From: Stenotrophomonas aracearum
Lineage (GTDB): Bacteria > Pseudomonadota > Gammaproteobacteria > Xanthomonadales > Xanthomonadaceae
Assembly: GCF_031834615.1 (NCBI RefSeq)
Contig: NZ_CP115543.1
Location: 3,669,001-3,733,000, forward strand
Direction: 5' to 3'
Length of the DNA: 64,000 bases
In this document: piece by piece, positions 6,969 to 54,207 of the stretch
How the letters are laid out: the number at the start of each line of letters is the position of its first letter
Position numbering within the stretch: position 1 is the first letter of the stretch
Notes under the pieces: generated by a model
The model's database searches: none
What the model was told of the DNA's origin: nothing
What the model saw: the letters and a program-made list of their open reading frames with translations, nothing else
Position numbers and translations under genes: made by a program

Positions 6969-8900
6969 TCAGAGCATGGCCCGTACGGTGCGCAGCAGGT
7001 CGTGCACGCTGAACGGCTTGGGCAGCAGTGACATGCGCTCGCCCAGGAACTCGTCGCGCACCGCCGCGCGCTCCGTATAGCCGGTGATGAACAGCACCGG
7101 CAGCGCCGGGCGCAGCGCGCGTGCGGCGTCGGCCAGCTCGCGGCCGTTCATGCCGGGCAACCCGACATCGGACAGCAGCAGCTGCACCTCGCGGTCGGAA
7201 TGCAGTTCCAGCAGCGCCTGCTGGGCGTTGGTGGCCTCGACCACCTGGTAACCGGACTCCACCAGCATCTCGCGCACCATCATCCGCACCGAATCGGTGT
7301 CGTCCACCAGCAGGATGCGTTCGGCGTGGCCACGTTGGACCTGGGCCGGCGTTGCCGCTGCTTCGGCGGCCGCCTCCCGACCTTCAGGCAGCAGCAGTTC
7401 GATCTCGGTACCTTCGCCCAGCTCGCTGGCGATCCGGGCGCTGCCCCCCGACTGGCGGGCAAAACCGTAGGTCATCGACAGGCCCAGGCCGGTACCCTCG
7501 CCCTGCGGCTTGGTGGTGAAGAAGGGCTCGAAGACCTTGCCCCGCAGCTCCAGCGGAATGCCACTGCCGTTGTCGATCACCTTGACGCTGATGTAATCGC
7601 CCGCGGAAAGCTCGTGGTCGCGTTCGATGTGCACGCGGCCGGCGCGCAGCCGGATCAGCCCCTGCCCGGCCAATGCGTCGCGCGCATTGATGACCAGGTT
7701 GAGCATGACATTCTCGAACTGGTTGGCGTCGGCCACCGCCACCAGCGGTTCGCCTCCGAGCTCCAGTTCTAGTTCGATGTTTTCGCCGATCGAACGGCGC
7801 AGCATGTCTTCCAGCGACCGGATCCGGGCGATCACGTCGAAGGGCTGCGGGTCCAGCGGCTGCTTGCGCGCAAACGCCAGCATGCGCTGGGTCAGCCCCG
7901 CGGCGCGGTGCGCCGAGGCAGTGGCAATGTCGACGTAACGGCTGGCCTTGTCCCATTTGCCACTGCTGGCGGCGATCTCGATCATGTCCAGGCCGGAGAT
8001 GATCGTGGTCAGCAGGTTGTTGAAGTCGTGCGCGATGCCGCCGGTGAGCTGGCCCAGCGAATCCATCTTCTGCGCCTGCATCAGCTCCATTTCGGTGCGC
8101 TCGCGCTTGGCGATCTGGAAGGCTAGTTCGCTGTTGGCGCTTTCCAGTTCCTGGCGCTGCTCCAGCTCGCGCACATGCCGCTCGGTGATGTCTTCGACCA
8201 GCACCAGGCCCAGGCCGGGCGTGCTGTAGGGCGTGACCCGCCACTCGGTCATGCGCCGGCTGCCCAGCAACGGCAGGGCAAACGTGCCCTGCCAGCGTTC
8301 GCCTTCCGCGAGGGCGACCTTCAACGCACTCATCGGGCCTACCTGGTGATCGAGCAGCGACTCGATGTCGCCGGCGCCAAAGTGGTCTCCCAGCAGCCGT
8401 TTGAACGCATCGTTGGATTCGTGCACGTGGAGCCGGGCATCAAGCACGCCGATCGGCGTGCTGACCTGGCGGAAAATCTCGGCGAAACGTGCTTCGGCCT
8501 CGCGCAGCGCGTCCTCGGCGCGACGCGCGCGAAGCAGGCTGCGCAGGGTGGCGAGCAGGATGTCCGGGTCCACCGGATGGATCAGGTAGGCGTCGGCGCC
8601 GGCATTGAGGCCGGTGATCAGGTCGCCGGTGGCGATGGACGCCGCCGACACGTGGACCACGGGCAGCAGCTGCAGGCGCGGGTCCGCGCGCAGCTCACGC
8701 ACCACGTCGAAACCGCTCATGTCCGGCAGGTTCACGTCCAGCACCAGCGCGCCGAATTCCTGCGCCTTCAACTGCGCCAGGCCCTCGCCACCGGTACCGG
8801 CTTCATCCACGCGGAACCCGTGGTGCTCCAGTACGCGGCGCACCGCATAGCGGGTCGCCACGTTGTCGTCGACGATCAGGATGCGGTCACGCGTCGGCAT
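6969..8900 (-). CDS. Hybrid histidine kinase REC-PAS-HisKA-HATPase-REC, stressosome locus
   Basis: A soluble hybrid kinase of 643 residues. Domains in order: N-terminal receiver (about 5-120, phosphoacceptor in [12 protein letters not shown]), PAS-like domain (about 135-250), HisKA with [13 protein letters not shown], HATPase with DNGSGIPLE and [12 protein letters not shown], and a C-terminal receiver with [13 protein letters not shown]. The ATG at 8900 has GGAGGG 5 bases upstream and overlaps the previous kinase gene by 14 bases, so the two are translationally coupled. It is the last gene of the rsbRST cluster and probably carries the stressosome output, perhaps receiving phosphate from the upstream kinase on its first receiver. 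No membrane segments are present. Confidence 0.88.
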
Positions 8901-32802: not shown

Positions 32803-32953
32803 CGGCCGCACTGCCCTACGTTCCAACGGCTGATCGAGGCGTCGGACCGCCATTCCGGCGCCTCATTTGCTTACCTTGCAGCGGGCGGAACGCCTATGGC
32901 TGCCTCGACACGCGCATCCCAGAGTGACCCGACAACTTTACGCCGGGGGTACG

Positions 32954-33901
32954 ATGGAAGGCATGACTCAGTTCCGCATCACCTACGACGGTCCAGCGCT
33001 GGCCACACATCAGATGGATGCACGGGAACTGGCACCCGCATTGATGGCCATGGCGGACCTGCTCGACTGCAGCGTTCGCGCACTCCATGCTGATCGCGCC
33101 AAAGCGCAGATCAATGTGAAGGGATCCTTCAAGACCGGCAGCTTCAGTGTCGACTTCACTACCTCGGTCAGCTTCATGCAGGCGGCGAAGGACATTTTTG
33201 TTGGTGATGGCGTCACCGCCATTGCGAACGCAACAGCCGTACTCACAGCACTGGGGTTTGCCGCCAAGGCTGGCTACTCCGGCGTAGCCCAGGTGCTTCA
33301 ATGGCTGCGTGGCCGCCGGATCACCGACGTACAGATGACCGAAGAGGGACGGGTCCGGCTTCATGCTGACAAAGACACAGTAGTAGTCGATTACCCCGTC
33401 CTGGTCCTGCTCCGGGACATTCCGGTCCGCCAAGCCTTCGACCGAACTCTCGCGCCCCTGGACCGAGACGGAATCGACACCTTTGCCGCGGGCGACGACA
33501 GTTCGTTCGCGGTCATCGTTCGCGAGCACGAACGCCGCTTCTTCTGTGCTCCCACCGCCGATGACGAGCTACTGCTGGAGGACACCTGCAGAATGGCGTT
33601 TTCCATCGTGTCGCTGGCCTTCAAGGAAGACAACAAGTGGCGGCTTTCAGATGGCAACCACACCATCAGCGCCAGGATCTCCGACGAGCGGTTCCACTCT
33701 TCCGTCGACGCCAATGAATCATCCTTCTCGAAGGGCGACGTGTTGATCTGCGAGGTAAAGGTCACCCAATGGCACACACCGAACGGTGCCAAGACCGACT
33801 ATGAGGTGACCCGGGTCATCGAGCATCGCCGCGCCGCGTGCCAGATTTCACTTCCGGGCATGCAGCGGATCTCCAATCGGGTGGAGGCGAACTCGCTGTG
33901 A
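32954..33901 (+). CDS. Uncharacterised protein, family member 1 of 2 in this window
   Basis: A protein of about 315 residues; the start is the ATG at 32954 or 32963, the latter after GGAAGG. I do not recognise a domain. The N-terminal part (TYDGPALATHQMDARELAPA, then a GSFKTGSFSVDF motif) is followed by a weakly hydrophobic stretch near residue 95-120. The last 100 residues align by eye with the protein at 49015-49908: KW then G-x-x-ISA, D-x-x-F, a GD-x-L step, and Y-x-V-x-x-V near the end. It is the first gene of the accessory region and has no evident partner gene. Confidence 0.7.
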   Translation: MEGMTQFRITYDGPALATHQMDARELAPALMAMADLLDCSVRALHADRAKAQINVKGSFKTGSFSVDFTTSVSFMQAAKDIFVGDGVTAIANATAVLTALGFAAKAGYSGVAQVLQWLRGRRITDVQMTEEGRVRLHADKDTVVVDYPVLVLLRDIPVRQAFDRTLAPLDRDGIDTFAAGDDSSFAVIVREHERRFFCAPTADDELLLEDTCRMAFSIVSLAFKEDNKWRLSDGNHTISARISDERFHSSVDANESSFSKGDVLICEVKVTQWHTPNGAKTDYEVTRVIEHRRAACQISLPGMQRISNRVEANSL

Positions 33902-33934: not shown

Positions 33935-34465
33935 TCATCCTCCGGACCACGATGCGGCATCACGAGGCAACTGCTGATGCGGATCATAGGCGCTCAGCGA
34001 ATCTGCGGAGAGAGTGCTCGAGTTAAAGAGGACAAGGTTCGTTCCCCCGGCATGAAGCATCGATGGAAAAAGTATGCCGGCTGCACCGGCATCAAGAGCC
34101 AGGTCTCCCAGAACCCAGCTGGGCGGCTCTACTCGTGCATCAAAGGCCAATTGCCGCCAGTTGCATCCGTACTCCGCCCAGATGGGATCCCAACTATGGG
34201 CTGCATACCCTGACGAAAAGTCGACTACCCGAAGTCTGCGGACCAAGAACGTAGTAATCGTGCCAGGGGGCAACAGGCGGGCGTGCTGGCGGTACTCTTC
34301 CAACGCGGTTTCGACCGTCTGGGAGAGATAGAGCGCCTCCAACCCGGGACGGTTGAATCGTCCGCCTTTCAGCGCGGCTCCCGCACCCGAAGTCGGTGCG
34401 TGCGACCAGCGTGGCGTGATGACGCGGTAGAGCGCCTCTTCGTCACTCAGGTCGCGCAGAATCAT
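33935..34465 (-). CDS. RES-domain toxin (NAD-consuming)
   Basis: A 176-residue RES domain protein. RES toxins degrade NAD+ and are neutralised by an Xre/MbcA-ParS antitoxin. The signature positions are visible: LYRVITPRW near the N-terminus, the GGRFNRPGLEALYLS block, an E in TALEEYRQH, and AGILFPSMLHAGGTNLVLF with the serine. Its ATG overlaps the antitoxin stop by 4 bases, the usual antitoxin-first order. The length is normal for the family and no lesion is seen. Confidence 0.88.
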   Translation of the reverse strand: MILRDLSDEEALYRVITPRWSHAPTSGAGAALKGGRFNRPGLEALYLSQTVETALEEYRQHARLLPPGTITTFLVRRLRVVDFSSGYAAHSWDPIWAEYGCNWRQLAFDARVEPPSWVLGDLALDAGAAGILFPSMLHAGGTNLVLFNSSTLSADSLSAYDPHQQLPRDAASWSGG

Positions 34466-34842
34466 CCGGTGGCACCGCCGGCCATGGACTCAATGTAGTC
34501 GACTACGACTTGGGACTTGCCTGCTCGCACGAGCGCATCTGGCGTCAGGTAGTCAAATTCCTGGAGCGGCTCATTCATGAACCAGAAAATCGCGCGAGTG
34601 CGGTCACCAGCAGCTGCGTCTTCGGCGGCCGCCAACACCCGCAGAACCTCTCTAAGGTATTGCTGCAGGCTTTCGTTCTGGGGACGAGCAGCAGGAGTGT
34701 TGCGGCTGACGCGCGCGCGCTCCGCCAGACTCTGGATCTGCAAGCCCAATGCAGCACCTACCCGTCTCGGCGAAAGGTAGGCATGGTCGGGCTCGCGAAA
34801 CGCCTCAGCAAGGCTAGCCAAGGGTGCCACTACGACGCTCAT
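34462..34842 (-). CDS. Xre/MbcA/ParS antitoxin of the RES toxin
   Basis: A 126-residue antitoxin. The N-terminal half has an HTH-like helix set (VGAALGLQIQSLAERARVSRN), and the C-terminal toxin-binding half contains RAIFWFMNEPL and the DYLTPDALVRAG turn, typical of the DUF2384 family. I chose the ATG at 34842 with GGAG 8 bases upstream; a GTG at 34851 is possible. A palindrome at 34864-34882 lies just before it and is a likely autoregulatory site. Confidence 0.87.
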   Translation of the reverse strand: MSVVVAPLASLAEAFREPDHAYLSPRRVGAALGLQIQSLAERARVSRNTPAARPQNESLQQYLREVLRVLAAAEDAAAGDRTRAIFWFMNEPLQEFDYLTPDALVRAGKSQVVVDYIESMAGGATG

Positions 34843-34863
34843 CTTGCGCACTCCACTTCCGAT

Positions 34864-34998: not shown

Positions 34999-35481
34999 CT
35001 AGTGCACGCAGTCCGATGCGGCCTTGATCGCTTCGGCCACCGGGTCCGGTGTCTGAGGAATGGCGGCAATATCAACGATCGATATCAGCCCTAGCAGATT
35101 CCTCACGCTCAGATCCTCCACCGAGCCGGGGCAGCGGTCCAGGATGTCGACGAGCGCCAGCAACTCAACCACGCTCAGGTCGAAGACTCGCAGTAGTCGC
35201 CGGATGACGCTGAAGAGCTCCTTCCTCGAAACGTCGTCGGGCCCCAGCAGGCGGTTCACGAAGGTGCCGGGCAACTCCGGGTGAACATCGCGGGTGGCGG
35301 AAATCGCACGCAGCACCGCGCCCATCGTGAGTGACTCGAAGGGCTCCTGGATGGCGTTGAGGTGCTTCTCAAGCGTGCACCACTGAGGGTTTCCCCAATC
35401 CAGCGTACCGGCGATGTAGCTGAAGTAGGAGACGAAATTGACGGTGGTGCGCTCGGGCGCGCCTAGGGATTCAGATGACAT
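34999..35481 (-). CDS. Uncharacterised small protein behind structured leader A
   Basis: A 160-residue protein of unknown function. The ATG at 35481 has GAGGAG 7 bases upstream. The N-terminal 45 residues (VSYFSYIAGTLDWGNPQW, then FESLTMGAVLRAI) align by eye with the 70-residue protein at 51227-51439, keeping the spacing of the D/E-W and W residues. The rest is helical, with a leucine-rich segment near residue 110-150. It follows directly a leader of about 260 bases that is shared with the other gene. Cytoplasmic, no signal or membrane segment. Confidence 0.65.
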   Translation of the reverse strand: MSSESLGAPERTTVNFVSYFSYIAGTLDWGNPQWCTLEKHLNAIQEPFESLTMGAVLRAISATRDVHPELPGTFVNRLLGPDDVSRKELFSVIRRLLRVFDLSVVELLALVDILDRCPGSVEDLSVRNLLGLISIVDIAAIPQTPDPVAEAIKAASDCVH

Positions 35482-35745
35482 GGCGGAACTCCTCAATTGA
35501 TCATCAAGGTCCGCCGCCCCGCTGCAAAACGAGGTGGCGGACGGTGCACGGTTTGCAGACCGGATTGAGGCCACCGGCAGGCCTTTCAGCCTCCGCACAC
35601 CGCCCGCCATATAACTGGCAAGCGACCGCCCATCGTCGATGCAGCGGGCCAAAAAGGAAAGGGCCATGCATCGAACGATGGGCGCTGGTGCGCCTCAAAA
35701 CAGAACGGGCTGCAAATCCCGGTCGCCGATTGTGCGGCGACAGTG
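35482..35745 (-). ncRNA. Structured leader element A
   Basis: Read on the minus strand this stretch forms three hairpins. Hairpin 1 at 35741-35722 pairs GTCGCCG with CGGCGAC. Hairpin 2 at 35684-35627 pairs CGCCCATCG with CGATGGGCG and continues with TCGATGCA/TGCATCGA, enclosing a pyrimidine loop CCCTTTCCTTTTTGG. Hairpin 3 at 35609-35535 pairs TGGCGGGCGGTG with CACCGTCCGCCA. The same order, spacing and loop occur in element B at 50970-51226 with changed but still paired stems. It ends at the ribosome site of the gene at 35481. Short protein-like frames across it are by-products of this conservation. Confidence 0.7.
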
Positions 35746-36435
35746 GGATGGTCGACCGTTAGAACATGGTCGTCAAAGAGGTCTCGGCCATTTTGCAGAC
35801 TCGGTACCGAAAAGGCGTTAAAACTGTGCGCTGACGCGCAATACCGCAGGCCAGAGCCGTCAGTTGGCGCACTCTCTGGAAAAGTACTGAGCGCTGTCTC
35901 CAAGCCGCAGCTAGCGCCCCGATTCGTGCGGGTTGGACAGCCAATGCAGTCAGCCCAAGGCTCTCGACCCGCTCTTCAGCTCAATTTCGGGGTGAGTCCA
36001 AGGGCAGCCGCCAGACGGATCGCGGAGGTCAGTCACCAAGCGGGAGAAGAGCCATGATTGGGGGGACGAGCATGTTGCGCGCTCCACTTTGCCGTCATAG
36101 CGAGGCGGCCTGTTCTCGCGTCTATCTCGCCCCGAAGATGGCTGCTCTTCTCATAGGGCAGGTTTGGAGGGGCGTCGTTGCGTGGGAGGAGCCTCTGGCA
36201 GACGGCAGGCGCCGCTGAGAGGAGAGGCGTCGGTCAGTGCGAGGCGACTTGCCAGCCTCCGCGGAAAGGCAAGGTACTGACTGGCCCCAATCAGTGCCGC
36301 CCCCCGCCTGACGCGCCTTCTCACCTCCCGCGCTTCTGTCGCGTTGTGCCTGAAACGCCCCCGCAGCCCGGCTGCCCTTGCGGCATACTTCTCTACGCGC
36401 TAAATATGCACCTCACAATCACGCAAGGAGGCACC
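35746..36435. other. Gene-poor stretch between divergent accessory genes
   Basis: About 690 bases before leader A on one side and the zinc-ribbon gene on the other. It should contain both promoters. Open frames of about 100 codons on both strands have no ribosome site or motif, and I do not support them as genes. Confidence 0.4.
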
Positions 36436-39695: not shown

Positions 39696-39868
39696 CTCTT
39701 GGCTCCTCAGTGGGAGCCTCTCCTGGGAAGGCGACGAATCTGCTATGGCACCACGGCTTGCTCTCGCAGCCCAGAGTCCAAAGCGACACTTCGTGACCAC
39801 TGGAGGCTCAGTTGACTGCCTGGCCGATGCGGTTCGCGGCAGGGTCGTCATCGACCTGGTCGTCGATG

Positions 39869-39922
39869 TGGTGGGCCCACCAGGATCCGAACCTGAAGCC
39901 AAGGCACTATGAGTGCTCTGCT
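39869..39922 (-). repeat. Degenerate tRNA-Ile2 3' fragment (outer attachment-site copy)
   Basis: The stretch matches the 3' half of the tRNA at 54132-54207, including GGTGGGCCCA, a GGATCCGAACCTG T-arm, CTATGAG over the anticodon and CTCTGCT, with several substitutions. It is in the same orientation as the intact tRNA, as left by integration. The stop of the 39907 gene lies inside it. Confidence 0.75.
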
Positions 39923-40660: not shown

Positions 40661-40707
40661 TTGGTGGGCCCACCAGGATTCGAACCTGGAACCAAAGGAT
40701 TATGAGG
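40661..40707 (-). repeat. tRNA-Ile2 3' fragment, left attachment site of the 13.4-kb island
   Basis: TTGGTGGGCCCA, an intact T-arm (CCAGGATTCGAACCTGG) and AACCAAAGGATTATGAG repeat the 3' part of the tRNA at 54132. The last 17 bases match exactly; the T-arm differs but still pairs, as expected when an island replaces the tRNA 3' end. Confidence 0.85.
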
Positions 40708-41300
40708 CCCGCGCCAAAACGTTGTCAATCAATGACATACGTGCTCGCATTTTTCCGGCGTGGCACCGTGGAACCATTGACCCGCCAATGCAAGCCGGCT
40801 CATTTTTCCGGAAGAAATTGTAAGGCCACGTCGAGAACAAGACCTGCCAACCTGGCCGCCTGGATCGCGAGCCTCTTGGGCTTGGTCGTCGCGACACGAC
40901 CCTCATTGGGCCCGCGACCGCTTTCGGCCAAGAGCGGGTACTTTGGAATAGAGCAGCCCTCCACAGTCGCCCTTGGCGATCCACGTCTCCGCCGCCACCG
41001 CATCGCCCTTGAAGATTGGGTCTTGCCCTTCGGCTGACATGGCTGTGTCAACTAGAGCACGGCCGCCAAGTTCAGACTGTGGTAGCCATCGCATAGGGCT
41101 CAGGCTCCGGTGGCTTAACGATGCCCCGCTGACCGCCGGTGCAGCGAGCCGATGGCCAAGGCTGAGTTGCTCGAATGAACTACGTAAAAATACTGACGCC
41201 ATTCCCGAATATGCACTGAGGACAGGAGAAGGTCATCCGGCGAACATCCCGGTGAAGGGTATGCGTTGCTCGCAGCTCATAACGTCCACTCGGAGTGCGT
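40708..41300. other. Left end of the tRNA-Ile2 island
   Basis: About 590 bases without a supported gene. Two copies of CATTTTTCCGG lie at 40748 and 40801; the second, CATTTTTCCGGAAG, recurs exactly at 54074-54087 next to the integrase. They may be integrase arm sites. Downstream is the promoter region of the sulfatase. Confidence 0.5.
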
Positions 41301-44542: not shown

Positions 44543-45220
44543 GAAGGGACGCTATGGCGGGGTGCCAGTTTGCCGCTCAATAGGTAATTTTTTGGATGGC
44601 CACCGGAAACAGGTAACTTAGGTAACCAGCCCCGCCTAACCTTCAAATTGTTCAATAGGATCATATAGTTACGTCAATCTATTGAAGGTAATTTTAGGGT
44701 AACGCATAGGTAATCAGATTACCTTTCAGCGAGGTAATCTGGTTCCTAAAAAATTTCCTTATAAATCAATGACATTACTTCGCGCCCTGTGCCGCGTTAC
44801 CTCAAATTACCGGCAGAGGTAACCTCCTATCTCCCTTGCAGCACTAGGCTTTCCGTCGCTTTTCAGCGCCCGGATTACCCCGTTACCTGTTTCCGGTGGG
44901 ACTCCAAAAAATTTCCGGCATGCGACCGGGCTTAGGAAGCGCCCTAGCGCCCTTTGCCGACCCGTACGCCGTGCAGGGTTCTGCAGGGTGGCAACCTCCG
45001 GCCGGAGAGCCGGCGGCCGCAGCAGGGGTGGGCCCGGAGGCGGTACCGCAGTGGTGCAGAAAAAGGGGGGGCCGAAGACCGCAGGCGTGGCGGGGAGACG
45101 AGTGCGCGCGCCGAGGTGAGAGACGCGTGCTCTGCGTCAGACTTGTCCTACAAGGTGGGGAGGACTTCCCCTATTGGCCCCTGGTCCGCGTGCGTGTATA
45201 GGTGCGGCAAGGGGGATCAC
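44543..45220. other. Leader and repeat region before the ATPase gene
   Basis: The first part (44583-44916) is an AT-rich block listed separately. The remainder (44917-45220) is GC-rich with a purine-rich stretch near 45060 and leads to the ATPase gene. An open frame runs through it into the ATPase but has no start with a ribosome site. Confidence 0.45.
44583..44916. repeat. AT-rich block with 35-base inverted ends and GGTAA(T/C) iterons
   Basis: The ends are inverted repeats: AATTTTTTGGA (44586-44596) then CCACCGGAAACAGGTAAC (44600-44617), against GTTACCTGTTTCCGGTGG (44882-44899) then TCCAAAAAATT (44903-44913). Inside and in the ends, GGTAAT or GGTAAC occurs 13 times on either strand. One pair makes the palindrome AGGTAATC-A-GATTACCT at 44708-44724, and TTCAATAG/CTATTGAA another. 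The block is much less GC-rich than its surroundings. It could be a small non-autonomous transposon or an iteron-type origin. Confidence 0.75.
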
Positions 45221-47530
45221 ATGCTGACCAAGATTGATCGCATTGAGGGCACCGGTCTGTTCGCGGCCGCAGGCCCAAGTACAGACTTCGAACGGGTGAC
45301 GCTCGTGTTCGGGGAGAACGGCAGAGGGAAGTCCACCTTGGCCGCCGTTCTTCGATCATGTGCGGAGAACAACGGCGAGCTCCTTCGGGCTCGGATCACG
45401 CTAGGGCAGGAAACCGCACAGCGAGCGGTGCTCTCCTTTAAGACAGGTGCCGCTGATGTGTCCCAGGCGACGCTGGACGCCGGCGCGTGGGATCGACCCA
45501 TACCGGGTTTAGTCGTCTTCGACGCGGAGTTTGTGGCTAGGAATGTGTACGCCGGCCAGGAGATATCCTCCGATCAACGCGCGAGCCTCCTCGACTTCTC
45601 ACTTGGCGAGGATGCGGTAGCAACCAGGGTGCAACATGACAGCTACACCGAGCCCCTGCGCCTGGCGAATGGTGAACTACGAACCGCGACAGCGGTTATT
45701 GACACGGCGCGGGGCTCGATCCCCCTGAACGCATATCGCGAGCTACCAAACGTCCCCGACGTCGATGCTCGGCTGCAGGAAGCGCAACGCACTCTTCAGG
45801 CCGCCTTAGCGATTGGTGCCGTTCGCGCACGACCGGTCGGCGCGGATCTTCTCGCACCCACCTTCAACATCGAGAACCTGTTTCTGATTCTCCGCAAGAA
45901 CCTGCCCATCGTTGAGGCGGAAGCAGAAGCAAGGGTCAAAGAACATATCGCGGGAAACGCACGCCATGGATTTGAGGCTTGGATCAGTTCTGGCCTGGAC
46001 TTCGTAAATGGAGACGCTTGTCCGTTCTGCGAGAGCAACATAGCCGGCTCAAAGCTGATCGCCGCGTATCGCGCCCATTTCAATGAAGAGTATCGGACAC
46101 TGAAGTCCCAGGCAGCGGATCTTGTGCGCGGCGTTCAAACTCGAACGGATGCGAATCAGATCGACCGCCTAGAGCGCGAATTTCAGGTAAGCCAAGCGCA
46201 ACAGGAACAGTGGCGTGAGCACCTTGACATACGTCCTACTACGCTTGATTCAAACATGCTTAGGGAGAAGTACAAGTCACTTCACGACCTCCTTGTTCCT
46301 CTAGCCACAGCGAAGTCACATGCCCCGCTAGAGGCCTTCGGATCGCTGGAGCACGAGGCTAACGCTCGCGCTCTCTGGGCAGAGCTTCTCGCGATAGTCG
46401 ATGCCACGAACGCTCAAATCAAGTGCAATAGGGAGGCCATTGCGGCCTACAAGGCAGGCCTAGAGAACTCGAACGTCGATCAGATTCGCTCTTCAATCAC
46501 AACACTGTCCGCAACTAAGGTCAGGCACAGTCCGGCTGGCATAGCACAACTGGTTGCACTCGAAAAGGCCGTGGCAGAGAAGGCGCGTTTGACGGCAGAA
46601 AAAGATGCTGCTCGCGTAAAACTAGATACGTTGATGACCCAAACGCTTGATCAGTATGGGGAGCGAATCAATCAACTTCTGCACGACTTCGGCGCTCAAA
46701 TTCGAGTTCGGAACCTTGGAATCAGCTTTCGCGGAGCGCAGAATCGACCGCGAACCGACTATGGTCTGGAAGTTCGCGGCGCTCCGATTCTCCTGACCAA
46801 CGATCAAGGGCCCAACTTCGGCAACTCACTTAGCGAAGGGGACAAGCGAGCTCTAGCATTCGCATTCTTCATGGCGAGAGTGCTTAGCAACGCTGGCCTT
46901 GCGGAACGCACGGTAGTGATAGACGATCCAATGTGCAGCCTCGACCGTCATCGCCGGGCCACCACACTCAGAGTACTGAAGCGGCTTGCGCTGGCGTGCC
47001 GGCAGTTGATCCTAATAGCTCATGACATCTGGTTCTTGCGGGATTTCGACGATGGTCTGGAAAAGATGCCTAAAGCGCATAGACCTCGCCGCGCCTACGC
47101 CAAGATATCCAGAATCGCAGGTAACCTGTCATCTTTCGAAGCTCTTGATATCGCTGACGAATGCAGGAGTCCGTATCAAAGAAACCTGACCGACGTCCTT
47201 AACTTTGCCCTAGGAGCGGACAACGGCGCCGGCAAAGAACTGGTGGCAAAGTCGTTGAGGCCTTTGATCGAAGGCTACATCCACCGACGTTTCCCTTTGA
47301 ACGTTCCGAGAAACAGGAACCTTGGGGACGTCCTAAAGTTGATCCGGGACGCCGGAACGGGAGATCCACTGCACGCTTTGGGGGACAAACTCGAAGAGCT
47401 ACAGGCTCTGAACGATTACACTATTCCCTTCATGCACGTGGAGGGAGAGCCGGCCCCGGATCTTTCCCAAATCGAAGAGGGTGAACTCGCTGCGTACTCA
47501 GAGCGAGCCGTCAGGGTTGTCTACGGATAA
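45221..47530 (+). CDS. RloC/PrrC-like AAA_13 ATPase with zinc hook
   Basis: A 769-residue SMC-like ATPase. Walker A GENGRGKST lies at 31-39; a long helical middle follows with a zinc-hook CPFC at 267-270 and coiled coils (about 285-480); then the ABC signature NSLSEGDKRAL, Walker B VVIDDPMCSLD and a histidine switch in IAHDIW. The C-terminal 150 residues carry RPLIE (R-x3-E) and a later H in IPFMH, an arrangement like the anticodon nuclease triad of PrrC/RloC. RloC cleaves tRNA upon DNA damage or phage attack, so a defence role is inferred. The ATG at 45221 follows AAGGGGG. It stands alone, followed by a strong hairpin. Confidence 0.7.
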   Translation: MLTKIDRIEGTGLFAAAGPSTDFERVTLVFGENGRGKSTLAAVLRSCAENNGELLRARITLGQETAQRAVLSFKTGAADVSQATLDAGAWDRPIPGLVVFDAEFVARNVYAGQEISSDQRASLLDFSLGEDAVATRVQHDSYTEPLRLANGELRTATAVIDTARGSIPLNAYRELPNVPDVDARLQEAQRTLQAALAIGAVRARPVGADLLAPTFNIENLFLILRKNLPIVEAEAEARVKEHIAGNARHGFEAWISSGLDFVNGDACPFCESNIAGSKLIAAYRAHFNEEYRTLKSQAADLVRGVQTRTDANQIDRLEREFQVSQAQQEQWREHLDIRPTTLDSNMLREKYKSLHDLLVPLATAKSHAPLEAFGSLEHEANARALWAELLAIVDATNAQIKCNREAIAAYKAGLENSNVDQIRSSITTLSATKVRHSPAGIAQLVALEKAVAEKARLTAEKDAARVKLDTLMTQTLDQYGERINQLLHDFGAQIRVRNLGISFRGAQNRPRTDYGLEVRGAPILLTNDQGPNFGNSLSEGDKRALAFAFFMARVLSNAGLAERTVVIDDPMCSLDRHRRATTLRVLKRLALACRQLILIAHDIWFLRDFDDGLEKMPKAHRPRRAYAKISRIAGNLSSFEALDIADECRSPYQRNLTDVLNFALGADNGAGKELVAKSLRPLIEGYIHRRFPLNVPRNRNLGDVLKLIRDAGTGDPLHALGDKLEELQALNDYTIPFMHVEGEPAPDLSQIEEGELAAYSERAVRVVYG

Positions 47531-48089: not shown

Positions 48090-48671
48090 GCCACCGCCGG
48101 TGCAAGTTCAAAGGGAGCGAAGCTGATCACCTCTTGGCCTAGCCAGTCGTTGATCGCCCTGATGCGCGTCTGCAACGGTCCCAGTTCCATTGCAGCCCAG
48201 ATCGTTGCCGCGTCGCGGATCGAGCCGAAGCCGCCGTTATTCTGCGGCACGATGCCGAGCAGCTGTGGCGGCACGCGCAGCGCGGCCAGCGTGTCATCGC
48301 GCGTCACGCCCTTGATGTTCGCGAACTCATCCCTGGCCGCGACTTCGCTCACGGGGATGATCTGCAGGCCGTCCTTCTTACCGTTGGGCGAGTGCACGAA
48401 CAGGTTCCGGAAGTTGCCCGGGCCACGCGCCGCCCTGAGCGCCTCGCGCAGGCCGGTTACGTAGGACGATTCGGCCTGGGAGTCGGTCAGGCACAGTACG
48501 AAGCCGGCATGGGAGCCGTTGTTGTATTACTTGCGGCGGAACAGCGTGGCCGACTCGTTGAGCAGCGCGGACTGAACGGCCGGCATCCACTCAGGCAGGT
48601 CGTACACCGCTTGGTCGGCATCCGATTCCCGCACTTGGTACACATGGCCGGCCGGGAACTCGTCCTCCATG
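48086..48671 (-). pseudogene. P2-like portal protein (gpQ), C-terminal fragment with stop codon
   Basis: The fragment reads EDEFPAGHVYQVRE, LPEWMPAVQSALLNESATLFRRK, then a TAA where a tyrosine codon is expected, then NGSHAGFVLCLTDSQAE and the conserved VTRDDTLAALRVPPQLLGIVP to the end at 48086. This is the C-terminal two thirds of P2-type portal proteins, which form the DNA entry ring of the capsid. The N-terminal part is lost. It shows that P2-like phage DNA once formed part of the island. Confidence 0.8.
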
Positions 48672-49014
48672 CTAGATCCAGCCAGCGGAGGGGCGATATG
48701 AACGGATGGCTGTGAGACGAAACTCGGCCAGTTCGCTGGAGCTGCCCAAGGCCGGAACTGGCTTCAGCCGCGCACTCTATTAACTTGGCACCACTAAGCT
48801 GGGTCTCGCCGCGCCAGCCCTAGCCCAAGCAGGGCGACCACACCGGAGTCTCCTCCTGCGCCGGCAAGGACTGCTACGCGCCGTTGTTGCCAACAGGGAA
48901 CCCGTACTAATATCCACCCACAGATGCTGCTTGTGCGAAGGCTACGGGAGTGGATGCCCAGCCTCATCGATACGGCCGTCATCGATACCAGCCAACATCA
49001 GGGGATATCTTGTC
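48672..49014. other. Stretch after the portal remnant
   Basis: About 340 bases without a supported gene. It contains the breakpoint where the portal homology ends and the leader of the next gene. I see no operator or hairpin worth naming. Confidence 0.4.
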
Positions 49015-49908
49015 ATGGACGTCATTCAGATTCCGCATGATACGAATCGCTTAGTACTGCACTTTGATACCGCGCTTCTTCAGATCAATGCATACGCGTT
49101 AGCGTCGTCGCTCGTCGGGCTGGCAAATGCAATTAAGGAGGCTAACTCCATCGTCAACCCCGGCTATGCAGTAGAGGTGGTGGTTGAGCGACTTGAAGAT
49201 GGAAGCTTTCGCGCCACGCTCAAAGCTGTCGTCAAGAAGGCGGGGAACATATTCTCCCATGAATTATCGAAGGCAATCATCTACGGCATCATCGCAACAT
49301 GGATCTATGACCAGACTCTGGGCGCGGACAAAGAGCCAATCATCATCATCAACGATGAATCCGTTGAGATTCGTTCGGGCGAAAGGATCATAATTGTTCC
49401 GCGCGAAGTCTATGACGCAAAGAAGGAAGTTGAAAGATCGGAGCGATTCCAGTCATCTATGAGCCAGGTGTTCAACGGTGCGCTCAAAGATCCTGCGGTT
49501 ACTGGCCTTAAAATTACGCCTCCCGGCGAGTGGCCTGGACTGCCCTCAGTCCCGCGCGAGCAGTTCGTCCTGATTGCATCCCGGTATGAGGCTGACGACG
49601 CAAACGCGATTTATGAAGATGCAGTGCTTGAGATCTCCCGCGCCATCATGTCGCGAGGCCGCAGGAAATGGGAGTTCTACTGGCGAGGCGTAAAGATCTC
49701 AGCTCCTGTCTTGGATCACGCGTTCTACGAAGCCTTCTCCGCCCACGACATCACCATAGCGCCCGGCGATATGTTGAGAGTGGTCCTAAAGATCTATCGA
49801 AAAACCGATCCCGAAAGCGGGATCCATGTGAATACAAAGTATGAGGTTGTCGAGGTGCAGAATCACATCCCCCGAGAGGTACAAGGGTCGTTCGAGACAT
49901 CCGCGTAG
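49015..49908 (+). CDS. Uncharacterised protein, family member 2 of 2 in this window
   Basis: A 297-residue protein of unknown function. The N-terminal domain (LVLHFDTALLQINAYALAS, later DGSFRATLKAV) is followed by one hydrophobic helix (about 85-105, KAIIYGIIATWIYD), a charged linker, and a C-terminal domain of about 100 residues. That domain aligns by eye with the protein at 32954-33901 (KWEF, GVKISAPVLD, PGDMLRVVLKI, YEVVEV). The ATG at 49015 follows AGGGGA. A 39-codon membrane-peptide frame follows within 25 bases. Codon use is less biased than in the core. Confidence 0.7.
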   Translation: MDVIQIPHDTNRLVLHFDTALLQINAYALASSLVGLANAIKEANSIVNPGYAVEVVVERLEDGSFRATLKAVVKKAGNIFSHELSKAIIYGIIATWIYDQTLGADKEPIIIINDESVEIRSGERIIIVPREVYDAKKEVERSERFQSSMSQVFNGALKDPAVTGLKITPPGEWPGLPSVPREQFVLIASRYEADDANAIYEDAVLEISRAIMSRGRRKWEFYWRGVKISAPVLDHAFYEAFSAHDITIAPGDMLRVVLKIYRKTDPESGIHVNTKYEVVEVQNHIPREVQGSFETSA

Positions 49909-50051: not shown

Positions 50052-50646
50052 TCCCATTCGAAGTGGAGCTGCCTTCGTTGCGCCAACGAGGCTCTCCACT
50101 CCGAGCGCTCCAGACCATCTCCAGCCTGATCGTTTCGAGATTCGACTTTCCGAACATCTCAGGCACCGACTGCCATGCCTGAGACACAGAAATGGCACGC
50201 AAGATTGGGTTGGCCACTTGCCACTCTGCTCAGCACGGCCAGTCTGACATCCTCGCAAGCCCTCGGTCTCACCTCGTGGGTGAGCTGGCCGGTCATCCAA
50301 ACCACGGTGAAACTGACGCAGTCGGCGGTGACGCCATGCAGCGGCAAGGTGACTCGACGTGCACACGAACAAAGCGTATCCCGTCCCCTAGGCATTCTTG
50401 GTCCGCAAGTAGCGACCGCCGAGATTGTGCTCCTTATCGAGCCGAGCAGACTGAGCGGCACCATAAACAAACCCCCGCCCTGCGCCAAAAGCGGTGGAGA
50501 GCGCGGACGGTGTACATTCCACTTGCACAACCGATGCCAAACGTAAATCGCCCGCGGAGATAATAGCCTCTAAGTCGAAGGCCAACATGTTCGTTGAGTG
50601 GCCGGACGATCAATTCCACTTTTCCAAATCAAATTCAGGTTCGAAC
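50052..50646. other. Gene-poor stretch before the Ogr/Delta gene
   Basis: About 600 bases. Open frames of some 120 codons exist on both strands at 50159-50563, but none has a ribosome site, motif or plausible composition. A frame start at 50587 would extend the zinc-finger gene by 20 residues that do not look like the family. Confidence 0.4.
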
Positions 50647-50931
50647 ATGTCAGCTAGCCGGGCGTTTATGCGCTGTCCCCATTGCCTGTCACCATCCATC
50701 GTTCGTACCAGCGTGATGCATAGCAAGCTACTAAGAGAGTCTGTCTTGCAGTGTCGTAATGCGATTTGCGGCCACACCTTCTCCGCCTACACGGAAATCG
50801 TCCGCACCATCTCGCCCAGCGCTTGCCCAAGCGCTGACGTTTGCTTGCCCCTAAGCGGCACGGCAGAGCGCGCCGCGTATAAGCTGCAGGCGGCGGCGAA
50901 TCGCGCCGCCTATCCGCCACCAATGTCGTGA
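50647..50931 (+). CDS. Ogr/Delta-type zinc-finger transcriptional activator
   Basis: A 94-residue protein of the Ogr/Delta family, which activates late promoters of P2-like phages and their P4-like satellites. The finger reads MRCPHCLSPSIVRTS and CRNAICGHTFSAY, giving the C-x2-C and C-x4-C pairs, followed by VRTISPSACP. The start is the ATG at 50647 or 50668. It lies upstream of structured leader B and a Psu-like gene; in P4 delta precedes psu. The reading frame is intact. Confidence 0.8.
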   Translation: MSASRAFMRCPHCLSPSIVRTSVMHSKLLRESVLQCRNAICGHTFSAYTEIVRTISPSACPSADVCLPLSGTAERAAYKLQAAANRAAYPPPMS

Positions 50932-50969
50932 CTGTGGACTTGACACGTCGCCCGACTGTGGAGCAGCAT

Positions 50970-51226
50970 TGCCTCGTCGCCGCAAATTCGGCGTCCGGGA
51001 TTGGTCTCTCGTTGAAGGAGCGCACAAGCGCCCATGCTGCAACACACGGCGCTTTCTTTTTGCCCGTTGTATTGCGATGGGCGCGTGTCAGCCAGTCATA
51101 TGGCGGACGGTGCGCGGGGGGCTTCGGCCCCGCCGGTTTAGATTCCTTCCCGGTAGACCAACCCGCACCGGCCGCCACCTCGCTTGGTCTTGCGGGGGCG
51201 AATTCCTACGTAGAAGGGATCTTGTC
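50970..51226 (+). ncRNA. Structured leader element B
   Basis: Second copy of the leader at 35482-35745. Hairpin 1: GTCGCCG (50976) with CGGCGTC (50989). Hairpin 2: CGCCCAT (51029) with ATGGGCG (51077), enclosing GGCGCTTTCTTTTTGCCCG. Hairpin 3: TGGCGGACGGTGCG (51101) with CGCACCGGCCGCCA (51164), containing an inner GGGGC-TTCG-GCCCC at 51118-51131. Compared with copy A many bases differ while pairing is kept, for instance the inner stem AGGC/GCCT becomes GGGGC/GCCCC. It ends at the start of a small gene related to that behind element A. Confidence 0.72.
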
Positions 51227-51439
51227 ATGACCGCTGAATCTTCAGCTTCTAGCCTTGCTTTCACCTCCCGCCTCGCGCATTACTTTGGCGCCATCGCTGA
51301 CTCCTTGGAATGGGATCACTCCAGCTGGGTTGGGCTATGCAGTCAGCTGCAGCTTGTCCGTCGCAATCCTGGCGAACTTACCCTCAGCGAGATCCAGCTC
51401 ATGCTTACTGAGCGCTCCCGGCTTGGTGCAGTGCAATGA
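51227..51439 (+). CDS. Uncharacterised small protein behind structured leader B
   Basis: A 70-residue protein beginning MTAESSASSLAFTSRL. The stretch RLAHYFGAIADSLEWDHSSW, then LCSQLQLVRR and GELTLSEIQLML, aligns by eye with residues 10-60 of the protein at 34999-35481. AAGGGA lies upstream of the ATG at 51227. The next gene overlaps by 4 bases (ATGA). Function unknown; it may be a phage or satellite regulator. Confidence 0.65.
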   Translation: MTAESSASSLAFTSRLAHYFGAIADSLEWDHSSWVGLCSQLQLVRRNPGELTLSEIQLMLTERSRLGAVQ

Positions 51440-51651: not shown

Positions 51652-51811
51652 CCCACTCATCTAGCGTTGGGCCTATCGCAACTTAGGCGTCCCGGCCCAC
51701 ACCTCAGCTGGCAGTTGCGGCGCCTTGAGGCGCCACTTCCACCTCCACTCCACCCAGGTGCGCAGTCTTCTGTGCACTGGCCATTCGCTTAACTTACGGG
51801 AGTACCACAAA

Positions 51812-52534
51812 ATGATTTCCCAGAATCTCGTCATTTCCCGCAGTCGGGATCCGGAGTACACAGAGCGCCCTGCGTTTGAGCGCTCGCGCCTAGAATACGA
51901 GGCTGCAGCGGACGCAGCTCGCGGCGCAATTTTTGCTATGACTTCCATGCGCCAAAGAATGCTCGACTTGAACCAGCGGAAGGCCGCTGCTTGCGCTGAT
52001 GCCGAGACAGCGCGGATTCGGTGGAGCCGCTTGCTGCGCGAGTCTGGCGGCGTCCTGACGACTGACCTTGAGGATCTTCGAGCTTCGGAGCGATCTTCGC
52101 TTTCGCTTGCTGACGAGTATCAGGCTATGTGCGAGGAACTTGAAACATCGCTGATCAGCTCTGAGGTTTCTGCTGCTGACCTCGCTGCCACGGCCCTCAG
52201 CAAGCGCCGTGTCGCATTGTCAGCGGCAGCGGAGGATGCGTTTGTAGATCTGCAAATGGCTATCGGGCCAAGCTTTGAGCACGCCTACCGGCTGTTCCAG
52301 AGAGAACAAGCAGAGTCGATGCCGCCAGGTGAGCGCCATAGTGACAAAGAAGCGTTGATGGCGTTCGTTTCCAGATTCTCTGCGCTCATTCTCCAGAATT
52401 CCTCACCGACGGCTCAGCAGACTTACGAGTCTATTGGCATCTCCGAACTCAAGGTCGAGGACATCCCACACGAGCTGCTTCACAGCCCTGTTCGTCGTTC
52501 GATGCTACGCGAACTGTCAAAAAATCCGGCCTGA
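51812..52534 (+). CDS. Psu-like (phage polarity suppression) coiled-coil protein
   Basis: A 240-residue helical protein. Residues 25-150 are coiled coil (RSRLEYEAAADAARGAIFAM, later ARIRWSRLLRESGGVLTTDL and LADEYQAMCEELE). The W-x-x-LLRESGG step and the layout resemble polarity suppression proteins of P4-like elements; in P4 Psu inhibits Rho and decorates the capsid. I recall rather than compute this likeness. The ATG at 51812 follows GGGAG. A GGTGACG/CGTCACC hairpin lies after the stop at 52579-52598. Its place beside an integrase at a tRNA fits a P4-type satellite. Confidence 0.5.
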   Translation: MISQNLVISRSRDPEYTERPAFERSRLEYEAAADAARGAIFAMTSMRQRMLDLNQRKAAACADAETARIRWSRLLRESGGVLTTDLEDLRASERSSLSLADEYQAMCEELETSLISSEVSAADLAATALSKRRVALSAAAEDAFVDLQMAIGPSFEHAYRLFQREQAESMPPGERHSDKEALMAFVSRFSALILQNSSPTAQQTYESIGISELKVEDIPHELLHSPVRRSMLRELSKNPA

Positions 52535-52881
52535 GGGATCATTTCGCCCAAGCATCAGCGCAGGAAGCTTGGCCCGGCGGTGACGCGCCAACGTCACCCG
52601 AGGCTTGCACTGGCGGAGACTCAGGAGAGAGCAATGCCCCGGCGAACTTGGCTTGCCGATTGCACCCCCGCAGCGGTAAAGCACCGGGCCGGTGGCGAGA
52701 CTAGCACGAAGGATGTCCGACCGTTAGCCTGCGCCATCGCTTACGCTTCGGCCGGGCAGCGCCCTCGCCGCCTGGGTGCGCCGTTTCGCACGTGACAAAC
52801 TATCTACGTCGCTTTTGCCAGCCGCGAGGTGACCCAATGCGATGTGCACTAGAACTATGAGAATCATAGGTGTTGATTAGC
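52535..52881. other. Stretch between Psu-like and integrase genes
   Basis: About 350 bases with a perfect 7-base hairpin at 52579-52598 and otherwise no supported gene. In P4-like elements this interval often carries defence cargo; here it is empty. It should contain the integrase promoter. Confidence 0.4.
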
Positions 52882-54063
52882 ATGGGCAGGAAGCGCAAGT
52901 TCAAACCCGATATTCCGACACACATCGACCAGCTCGCATTACCGCGCGGGATTTACTGGGACGACGGTCGTTGGTTCATCTACACCCCGCACGCTGAAGG
53001 TGGCCGTGCGGTCAAGAAGACCGTCGCCTACAAGAGTGCTCGGCTGTCGGATCTGCATGCCGTTGTGGAGGCGCAGCTGTTGGGAGATCGACGCGGCACC
53101 TTGCGCTTTCTGTTCGACAGGTTCCATGAATCCATGGAGTTTCGCGAGCTCTCAACCGACACCCAAGACGACTACCGTCGTTATGCAGTCGCTCTGGCCT
53201 CCTACGCCTGCAAAGACGGCAGCGCGTTGGGCGACGTGCTTGTAGAGCGCATCACCACGCCAGTGGTGCAACGGCTGGTGGAAACGTTTGCCATCGGCCG
53301 CGACGCGAATCGCTATCAGCCTGCGCTGCCCGCCACACCGAGTAAGGCAAATCATCTGTATCGCTACCTTCGACGCACTCTAGCGTGGGGCGTTCGCAGT
53401 GGGCTGTGCGCGCGCAACCCTGCTGTGGGGGTGCGGCAGGCCAAGGAGGTGAAGCGGCACCGAATGCCGACGCCTGGCGCATTCGAAAAGGTGCTCGCGT
53501 TTGCACGTGAGCGCGGCGCTCTTCCTTCGCACACCAAGGGCAGTTGCCCCAGCTATCTTGCGCCCGTCATGGTGCTGGCTTACAGCGCACGTTTGCGCGG
53601 GATCGAGGTTTGCACGCTGACTGATGCACATCGCCGGCATGAGGGTATCCACGGCCAGCGGAGGAAGGGCTCGCGTGATTCAGTCACCGAATGGGACGAA
53701 GAGATGGTCAGAGCCTGGGACGATCTGGTCGCGCGCCGCAGCGCCATCTGGAACCGCGACGGCCGGAACTTCCCGGTGCCGCTGCGCGCCGAGAACCGTG
53801 TGCTGCTAGTCGAGCAGAGCGGCAATCCGATGGCCAAGTCATCGTTGGATAGTTCCTGGCAGCGATTCATCACCCTGGCACTCCGCGAGGGCGTGATCGA
53901 CAAGGAAGACCGCTTCTCTTTGCATGGGTTGAAGCACCGGGGCGTGACCGATACGGTGGGCAACCGTGGTGATAAACAAGATGCTGCCGGTCATCAGTCA
54001 CCTGTCACAACTGGTCGCTATGACCATGACCTGCCGGTCGTGAAACCTCCGCGCCGTCGATAG
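52882..54063 (+). CDS. Tyrosine-type site-specific integrase
   Basis: A 393-residue phage-type recombinase that inserts the island at tRNA-Ile2. The N-terminal part is a core-binding domain; the catalytic half has the arginine in AYSARLRGIEV, HGLKH in place of the common HxLRH, and GHQSPVTTGRYDHD with the nucleophilic tyrosine. The ATG at 52882 has weak upstream AGG. The gene ends 68 bases from the 3' end of the tRNA, the usual arrangement. It appears intact, so excision may still be possible. Confidence 0.9.
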   Translation: MGRKRKFKPDIPTHIDQLALPRGIYWDDGRWFIYTPHAEGGRAVKKTVAYKSARLSDLHAVVEAQLLGDRRGTLRFLFDRFHESMEFRELSTDTQDDYRRYAVALASYACKDGSALGDVLVERITTPVVQRLVETFAIGRDANRYQPALPATPSKANHLYRYLRRTLAWGVRSGLCARNPAVGVRQAKEVKRHRMPTPGAFEKVLAFARERGALPSHTKGSCPSYLAPVMVLAYSARLRGIEVCTLTDAHRRHEGIHGQRRKGSRDSVTEWDEEMVRAWDDLVARRSAIWNRDGRNFPVPLRAENRVLLVEQSGNPMAKSSLDSSWQRFITLALREGVIDKEDRFSLHGLKHRGVTDTVGNRGDKQDAAGHQSPVTTGRYDHDLPVVKPPRRR

Positions 54064-54087: not shown

Positions 54088-54131
54088 CTCTAAGCAGTCG
54101 CTTGCAGAATGACCTAAGTGCTTGTTTTCTT

Positions 54132-54207
54132 TGGTGGGCCCAGAAGGATTCGAACCTTCAACCAAAGGATTATGAGTCCTCTGCTCTAACCGTTGAGCTA
54201 TAGGCCC
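54132..54207 (-). tRNA. tRNA-Ile2 (anticodon CAU), island attachment site
   Basis: A complete 76-base cloverleaf on the minus strand: acceptor GGGCCTA with TGGGCCC, discriminator A and encoded CCA, D-stem GCTC/GAGC, anticodon stem GAGGA/TCCTT with loop CTCATAA, and T-arm GAAGG-TTCGAAT-CCTTC. The 8-base D-loop and the CATAATC context match the lysidine-modified isoleucine tRNA rather than methionine. The tRNA 3' part is repeated at 40661 and 39869, so it serves as an integration site. Confidence 0.9.

Follow-up and report, generated by a model that had tools for sequence, protein, structure and literature searches.

Two C4-type leader RNAs in Stenotrophomonas aracearum, a probable P4-like immunity module with a loop-target code, and their dispersed relatives in sister genomes

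What kind of RNA is encoded twice, ahead of two different genes, in a 64,000-nucleotide stretch of the Stenotrophomonas aracearum genome (the window), and what does it do there? A preliminary description, made from the sequence alone, had reported a duplicated three-hairpin leader with covarying stems. We confirm the repeat pair, with the same order and spacing at 35745-35482 on the minus strand (copy A) and 50970-51226 on the plus strand (copy B). As described, each leader runs to the ribosome site of a gene, with ATG at 35481 (A) and 51227 (B). The description knew of no Rfam family for this RNA. For hairpin 3 that is wrong: in the Rfam search it had suggested, hairpin 3 of both copies is a C4 antisense RNA (RF01695), with covariance scores of 68.8 bits (A) and 60.6 bits (B) against a curated cut-off of 45 and E-values across the whole window of 2.8e-11 and 3.1e-9. 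A C4 antisense RNA is expected to be processed by RNase P to ~77 nt and to act in trans. These are the two C4 copies of the window's own genome. The parts of the two leaders are as follows.

35748..35776, minus strand: copy A, promoter-like TTGACG-17-GACCAT (by eye; putative function)
35722..35741, minus strand: copy A, hairpin 1 (isrK / c4-a1b1 5' hairpin)
35706..35721, minus strand: copy A, a1 hairpin, with a1 box TTTGCAG at 35716-35710
35692..35698, minus strand: copy A, b1 box TTGAGGC
35651..35685, minus strand: copy A, terminator-like stem and T-tract with one stem mismatch, sharing its 5' arm with hairpin 2 of the preliminary description
35530..35614, minus strand: copy A, C4 antisense RNA, with b' at 35571-35564 and a' at 35558-35552
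35522..35529, minus strand: copy A, a2 target TTTTGCAG
35489..35497, minus strand: copy A, b2 target ATTGAGG inside ATTGAGGAG, at the Shine-Dalgarno site
50940..50969, plus strand: copy B, promoter-like TTGACA-18-CAGCAT (by eye; putative function)
50976..50995, plus strand: copy B, hairpin 1 (isrK / c4-a1b1), with a T-T mismatch
50996..51011, plus strand: copy B, a1 hairpin, with a1 box TTGGTCT at 51001-51007
51014..51020, plus strand: copy B, b1 box GAAGGAG
51028..51061, plus strand: copy B, intrinsic-terminator-like GCGCC..GGCGC-TTTCTTTTT
51096..51182, plus strand: copy B, C4 antisense RNA, with b' at 51140-51149 and a' at 51155-51161
51184..51190, plus strand: copy B, a2 target TTGGTCT
51213..51222, plus strand: copy B, b2 target GAAGGGATCT over the Shine-Dalgarno site

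Hairpins 1 and 2 match known families below their cut-offs. A sensitive search of each leader alone gave full-length matches to c4-a1b1 (RF03163) of 38.7 bits (A) and 23.7 bits (B), under the cut-off of 46.7, and matches to isrK (RF01394) of 42.2 bits (B) and 35.7 bits (A), under the cut-off of 50. The isrK matches of the window (E 1.6e-7 and 7.4e-6) are the best of four searched genomes; whole-genome searches at E up to 0.1 gave below-cut-off isrK matches in 8 of 14 control genomes too. The leaders would work like c4-a1b1 but, with scores under the cut-off, do not count as members of RF03163. Both C4 and c4-a1b1 are listed in Weinberg 2010 (PMC2864571), and isrK is listed beside C4 in Xylella (PMC12189769). 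Judged by sequence, both copies are phage immunity RNA of the C4 / P4 CI type with an a1b1 (isrK-like) leader.

The loops of C4 match sites on both of its sides. In copy A, a' (CTGCAAA) fits TTTGCAG both upstream (a1) and downstream (a2), and b' (GCCTCAAT) fits TTGAGGC (b1) and the ATTGAGG at the ribosome site (b2) over 7 bases each, so that its boxes match in all four pairings. In copy B, a' (AGACCAA) fits TTGGTCT twice (a1, a2), and b' fits GAAGGAG (b1) and, with wobble, GAAGGGATCT (b2).

Relatives were gathered from viral contigs by one a1-hairpin pattern (72 contigs) and from genomes. Our own C4 covariance model, trained on 14 sequences, detects C4 in all but one of these 72 contigs (71), which had been picked solely by the a1-hairpin pattern; in the remaining contig (L229) the pattern sits at the contig end. 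Of 14 genome loci taken for C4 or a1b1, 12 have C4. The two others, L137 and L138, had been taken for their c4-a1b1 match and yielded no C4; they are possibly solitary remnants.

An alignment of 36 of 43 leaders (A5; near-duplicate L234 and six leaders of the distant genome G071 were left out) shows how closely loops and targets follow each other. Between a1 and a', 252 of 252 cells are paired with 62 double changes, and the covariation score is 0.663 compared with 0.175 in shuffled alignments (0 of 500 as high); between a' and a2 the figures are again 252 of 252 and 62, with 0.663 compared with 0.177 (0 of 500), and neither these shuffles nor the permutations below model descent; the double changes are counts of cells, not of independent events on a tree. 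Up to three pair types occur per position of the a box. Column counts for box b were dropped, as gaps there are out of register, and an energy test was used instead. From 87 matches we obtained 62 distinct leaders, of which 3 could not be parsed and 59 were used. Own partners paired better than random partners for b upstream (-10.84 vs -7.68 kcal/mol, 0 of 10000 permutations), b downstream (-12.27 vs -7.82, 0 of 10000) and a upstream (-10.98 vs -8.68, 0 of 10000). The downstream a site is the least clear of the four (-10.80 vs -10.03, 1 of 10000), and its own partner is the best in the row for 1 of 59 leaders. The b2 match lies mostly 27-33 nt behind C4 (extremes 11 and 50). In 56 of the 59 leaders an ATG follows it within 3-15 nt; the background rate, over 13-nt windows of the same stretches, is 23%. 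Among the leaders whose b2 match is weak or displaced are L283, L287, L139, L140, L132 and L134. The strongest covariation joins the C4 loops to two target sites, one upstream and one beside the ribosome site.

The codes of A and B are not fully separate. Two loops of A pair with the downstream region of B about as strongly as with their own, b' equally well (-9.3 both) and a' nearly so (-7.6 vs -8.0 for its own). With the upstream region of A, b' of B pairs at -7.6 (vs -7.7 for its own). The remaining five of the eight cross pairs are clearly weaker.

The stems themselves bear out the preliminary description in part. It had given the inner stem of hairpin 3 as covarying, and this stem, which is P2 of C4, changes on both sides at 4 of 5 pairs with all cells paired (36 leaders, A5). 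It had also read GGCGAC vs GGCGTC in hairpin 1 as compensatory. This reading fails: the 5' arm is GTCGCCG in both A and B, leaving a T-T mismatch in B, the sole unpaired row of 36 at that pair; elsewhere in the 36 leaders hairpin 1 does show a few double changes, at 3 of 7 pairs. The outer stem of hairpin 2 has identical bases in A and B, so the covariation claimed for it does not exist between the two copies. On A5, 79.8% of its cells are paired; double changes at 2 pairs are matched by 345 of 500 shuffles, 5 double-change cells by 11 of 500, and the covariation score is exceeded by 0 of 500. A weak covariation signal thus remains for this stem.

The 5' arm of hairpin 2 has a better partner in an intrinsic terminator stem, GCGCC...GGCGC (99.4% of cells on A5). 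The conserved stretch CTTTCyTTTTtG is present as described, but it is not a pyrimidine loop; it is the T-tract behind the terminator stem. In 46 of 59 distinct leaders such a stem is present with 5 or more T among the 8 bases behind it, and copy A falls outside these 46 because its stem has a mismatch. The arm GCGCC has three possible partners, namely the GGCGC just upstream, the GGCGC before the T-tract and the arm of the hairpin 2 outer stem. The first of these gives an early small hairpin, GGCGC-GCGCC, directly preceded by b1. It is paired in 98.9% of cells without covariation; as it hardly varies, the comparison neither supports nor refutes it.

The immunity leader of phage P4 (seqA - CI RNA - seqC) shares with our copies the isrK/c4-a1b1 part, the T-tract and the C4 RNA in the same order, as well as two matched targets, of which the second is at a ribosome site. 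Against the P4 record (NC_001609), both A and B show the order a1b1, terminator, C4/CI, a2b2, small gene; the gene behind the P4 leader is presumably the one named kil. In P4, C4 scores 74.9 bits at 8420-8507, isrK 60.8 and c4-a1b1 44.1, which is under the cut-off there too, and a C4 model built without P4 still finds its C4 (48.4 bits). The P4 boxes match as GTGAGAA twice and as TTCACAGG/TTCACAGGA. P4 differs in its codes and in that its isrK lies above the cut-off, whereas those of A and B lie below it. The C4 RNA of phages P1 and P7 (RF01695) shares the P1/P2/P3 fold and the a' and b' loops; copies A and B differ in preceding a phrog_26166 gene and not icd-ant, which we take to be the genes behind the P1/P7 C4. 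Both copies are ordinary, well-formed members of the known P4-type C4 immunity modules. The earlier proposal, that the RNA is structured, probably acts on the following gene and probably gives rise to a small RNA as well, gains support from this C4/P4 CI-type identity.

The gene context of copy B supports this identification. It lies in a 13.5 kb island between direct repeats of a tRNA 3' end (40661-40709 and 54131-54179), which carries genes for Ogr/Delta, a Sid/Psu-like protein and, adjoining the tRNA, an integrase, besides C4 and two small genes.

50494..50931, plus strand: Ogr/Delta zinc-finger gene just upstream of leader B (PF04606, E 2.8e-15)
51227..51439, plus strand: copy B gene behind the leader, 70 aa (phrog_26166, E 4.1e-11)
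51725..52534, plus strand: Sid/Psu-like protein (phrog_6165, E 2.6e-7)
52870..54063, plus strand: tyrosine recombinase (phrog_1, E 8e-30; Pfam Phage_integrase under its cut-off)
54131..54179, no strand assigned: island border, tRNA 3' end (tRNA gene 54135-54207), a 49-nt direct repeat, 90% to the reference 40661-40709

Copy B thus combines an integrase at a tRNA with an Ogr/Delta gene, the pairing by which we recognise a P4-like satellite. The Sid/Psu-like name comes from a single match to PHROG; the alignment with P4 Sid is weak (E 0.007), P4 Psu does not match, and the gene has no protein match in 50,697 phage records, in which leader B likewise has no similar DNA. No primase/helicase alpha of the island was found among the window proteins scanned (part of the frames). 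Matches to plasmid records cover at most 3% of the island among the matches listed (20 of 30). From its gene content, island B is probably a remnant of a P4-like satellite. A third, more divergent tRNA-end repeat lies at 39868-39916 (82% to the reference 40661-40709), and the three copies suggest repeated insertion at one tRNA.

Several genes nearby deserve mention. Inside the island, 44954-47530 encodes an AAA_13 ATPase that matches the PADLOC candidate PDC-S06 (E 7.5e-60), a possible defence cargo. Genes of the LAPAL family (NF053583; also PADLOC candidate PDC-S42) lie near each C4 module, at 32867-33901 and 48931-49908. At 48164-48597 the DNA resembles part of a portal gene over 434 bases, and no portal-length open frame is listed there. 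In another genome of the genus, locus L127 combines an integrase with an arm-binding domain, Ogr/Delta, C4, a DUF927 primase (also a PHROG primase) and a portal gene; L128 has C4 and DUF927, and its other genes look by eye like those of L127. Portal genes in such satellite-like elements lie at 11696-12736 of L127 (family tested) and, by eye, at 12042-13082 of L128 and 3770-4810 of L129.

Element A lies to the left of the third tRNA repeat and has other neighbours.

34999..35481, minus strand: copy A gene behind the leader, 160 aa, whose N-terminus matches phrog_26166 (E 1.7e-6), as does the small gene of B
33935..34851, minus strand: RES-domain gene and Xre/MbcA/ParS-like gene behind the copy A gene (Xre-like E 3.2e-4, under the Pfam cut-off)

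Copy A is a module of this type too; we recognise no satellite genes belonging to it, and none of the proteins scanned was identified as its integrase. It could be a remnant or a module since taken over. A takeover would mean that copy A no longer serves satellite immunity and has become the switch of a host-useful RES/Xre-like pair. The 160-aa, Xre/ParS-like and RES genes on one strand behind the leader and the lack of an identified integrase are consistent with this idea. However, all four pairings of copy A are intact, its gene still matches the satellite family phrog_26166, and an operon with the RES/Xre-like pair is only putative. We consider a takeover possible but rather unlikely.

It is also possible, though we think it a little less probable still, that the leaders have a dual use like that of the IsrK RNA of Gifsy-1 (RF01394), in which the short terminated leader would be a trans-acting small RNA and the read-through transcript a messenger. 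Our copies share with IsrK the 5' hairpins and the T-tract. The source on IsrK describes two isoforms, calls the P4 SeqA RNA its structural homolog, and reports downstream a stable RNA that is probably processed from read-through (PMC4825925). The isrK matches given above point the same way, but they stay below the cut-off, and the covariation of the code centres on C4. Such a dual use would be compatible with C4 immunity.

Far less probable is a cis-acting leader, such as a riboswitch or a protein-binding element, that controls the small gene without any antisense RNA. Conserved hairpins do stand before the gene, and hairpin 1 and the a1 hairpin are strongly conserved across leaders. Yet C4 scores above its Rfam cut-off, and at each of two distant targets 62 double changes keep step with the loop codes, where a ligand pocket would be expected to stay constant. 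Least probable of all is a translated gene: open frames cross both leaders and the P4 record annotates a 137-aa 'cI' repressor protein (NC_001609, 8168-8584) over its C4 RNA, but loop lengths differ by single bases between leaders and the double changes sit in paired positions.

We think it very likely, then, that both copies are immunity regions of the P4-satellite type, in which a C4 antisense RNA pairs with sites of its own leader and silences its own operon. In our model, one promoter would give a leader made of a1 and b1, the terminator, C4 with loops a' and b', and a2 and b2, followed by the small gene. C4 would be cut out of this leader by RNase P, as it is in phages P1 and P7 (PMC5320573). 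It would then pair with a1/b1 and a2/b2 of new transcripts from any element with the same code. Pairing at a2/b2 would cover the Shine-Dalgarno site of the small gene, much as the b' loop of the P1/P7 C4 is described as partly occluding a ribosome site (PMC5320573). Pairing at a1/b1 should open the small hairpin GGCGC-GCGCC, leaving the arm that the two structures have in common to the terminator; we infer this step from the overlap. The net effect would be antisense repression by early termination and a blocked start, each element having its own code. An integrated element would keep its operon off and be immune to an incoming element of the same code, whereas an element of another code would escape. 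An RNA that was supposedly unknown would thus become a readable immunity code, and leaders alone could predict which satellites exclude each other. We found no report of a C4 antisense RNA for Stenotrophomonas in open-licence papers, a weak absence; in the same kind of papers nothing was found on S. maltophilia sRNA families, and none of the listed matches on S. maltophilia small RNAs and repeats fits by title.

C4 is found well beyond the window. Among 101 related genomes, 41 carry it at the cut-off, from 3 of 27 genera; across the class the figure is 24 of 369 genomes, from 22 of 271 genera. Both surveys used stricter filters that lose weak C4 matches. Three sister genomes (G011, G038 and G009) hold 26, 18 and 20 C4 matches, two of the 18 under the cut-off. 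Behind 56 of these 64 (23, 15 and 18 per genome) lies a paralogous gene of ~120-140 aa; conversely, 56 of 65 matches to this protein family have a C4 at most 330 nt upstream, so that 9 family matches and 8 C4 matches are unpaired. The C4 pattern search had returned 67 rows, of which 2 were false and were removed. Among loci found by protein alone, C4 was present in 80 of 80 kept (the best 80 of 118). The dispersed loci are among L031-L056 and L087-L120, from these genomes, together with L141-L220. The window's genome has one marginal match to the protein family (E 9.2e-4). Members of this family (four tested, then three) have no Pfam or NCBIfam match; the predicted fold (pLDDT 78, pTM 0.58) found no match in the PDB better than E 1.4, and DUF3077, a source's name for one relative, matched 0 of 143 genomes, but no control either.

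The dispersed units pair with their own upstream sites. From 138 units, 8 were skipped (not parsed or with too little upstream sequence), and 80 distinct loops were obtained. Against their own upstream region, b' loops reached -14.35 vs -9.30 kcal/mol (0 of 10000 permutations; own site best in 41 of 80) and a' loops -14.37 vs -11.05 (0 of 10000). An earlier test on 54 loops agrees with these larger ones. Own upstream pairing is -10 or better in 71 of the 80; the weak nine include one clipped loop (L054) and real exceptions such as L052, L031 and L091. Clipping by the search pattern is certain for L054 (full loop -17.6) and probable for L050 and L113, and thus weakens the dispersed pairing signal. 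At the gene-start region, b' showed no own preference (-8.14 vs -8.19, 6021 of 10000 permutations as good; 80 loops), nor did a' downstream (80 distinct loops). TCCT, CTCC or CCTT occurs in the loop in 6 of 80 dispersed units vs 43 of 59 satellite leaders. As no target is visible at the gene's ribosome site, each dispersed copy would control mainly itself.

Each unit also appears to have its own code. Parsed loops are all distinct within each of the three genomes (12 of 12, 13 of 13 and 13 of 13, from 26, 18 and 20 C4 matches). Among 55 units compared, none of the 22 same-genome pairs whose coding sequences are at least 70% alike shares the b' loop, while 12 of 19 between-genome pairs at least 90% alike do; same-genome pairs at 90% or more number only 3. 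The codes shared between genomes probably mark orthologous loci. Units L037 and L042 are 96% alike in coding sequence and C4 scaffold, yet b1 and b' differ together (the own pairing of L042 is modest, -9.3), and L049 and L054 differ at both a1 and a' as well. In same-genome comparisons a unit extends from about -150 to +500 around C4, about 650 bp, and no transposase was noticed. Since no two same-genome units compared share a code despite near-identity elsewhere, the codes seem to change quickly, and on both sides.

Two further ideas about these loops did not hold. Dispersed b' loops (b' only) fit the ribosome-site regions of satellites no better than shuffled ones (-10.27 vs -10.15), and same-genome copies do not avoid each other's upstream sites more than those of copies in other genomes (-7.75 vs -7.90).

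We propose, with the chances evenly balanced, that in Stenotrophomonas a satellite immunity RNA became a dispersed, host-borne family of self-coded switches, each recoded and mainly self-controlling. Each unit would consist of its own C4, its better-paired own upstream site and a paralogous gene, with control by early termination. The open-licence literature yielded no published description of such units. The closest counterpart is the Group 1 small RNAs of A. baumannii, 21 similar C4-related RNAs with a variable loop in one genome, all but three of which fold like C4; they differ in that, as far as we could see, that source describes neither an upstream site matching each RNA's own loop nor paralogous genes following the copies (PMC5320573). 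If the dispersed relatives work as proposed, one genome would hold many natural antisense pairs, and it could be tested how codes stay apart after duplication and whether the host has adopted phage immunity RNAs. We find this system interesting for its loop-target code, seen in many leaders, and most of all for the self-coded units of the sister species. The C4 loop of one of these, L052 (G038), matches its own upstream site poorly and has perhaps been caught in mid-change.

Duplicated leaders can also stand side by side. In a 1.5-Mb genome of another family (G360), four C4 immunity leaders lie head to tail (L317, 548-1940). Each has its own a-code, with own energies of -9.2 to -12.8 and foreign ones of -8.7 or weaker, and the b-code is common to three leaders and different in the fourth. 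Together with the dispersed units, this tandem array suggests that duplication followed by recoding is a general way to build insulated antisense circuits. The array lies upstream of an apparent DUF927-type primase, recognised by eye.
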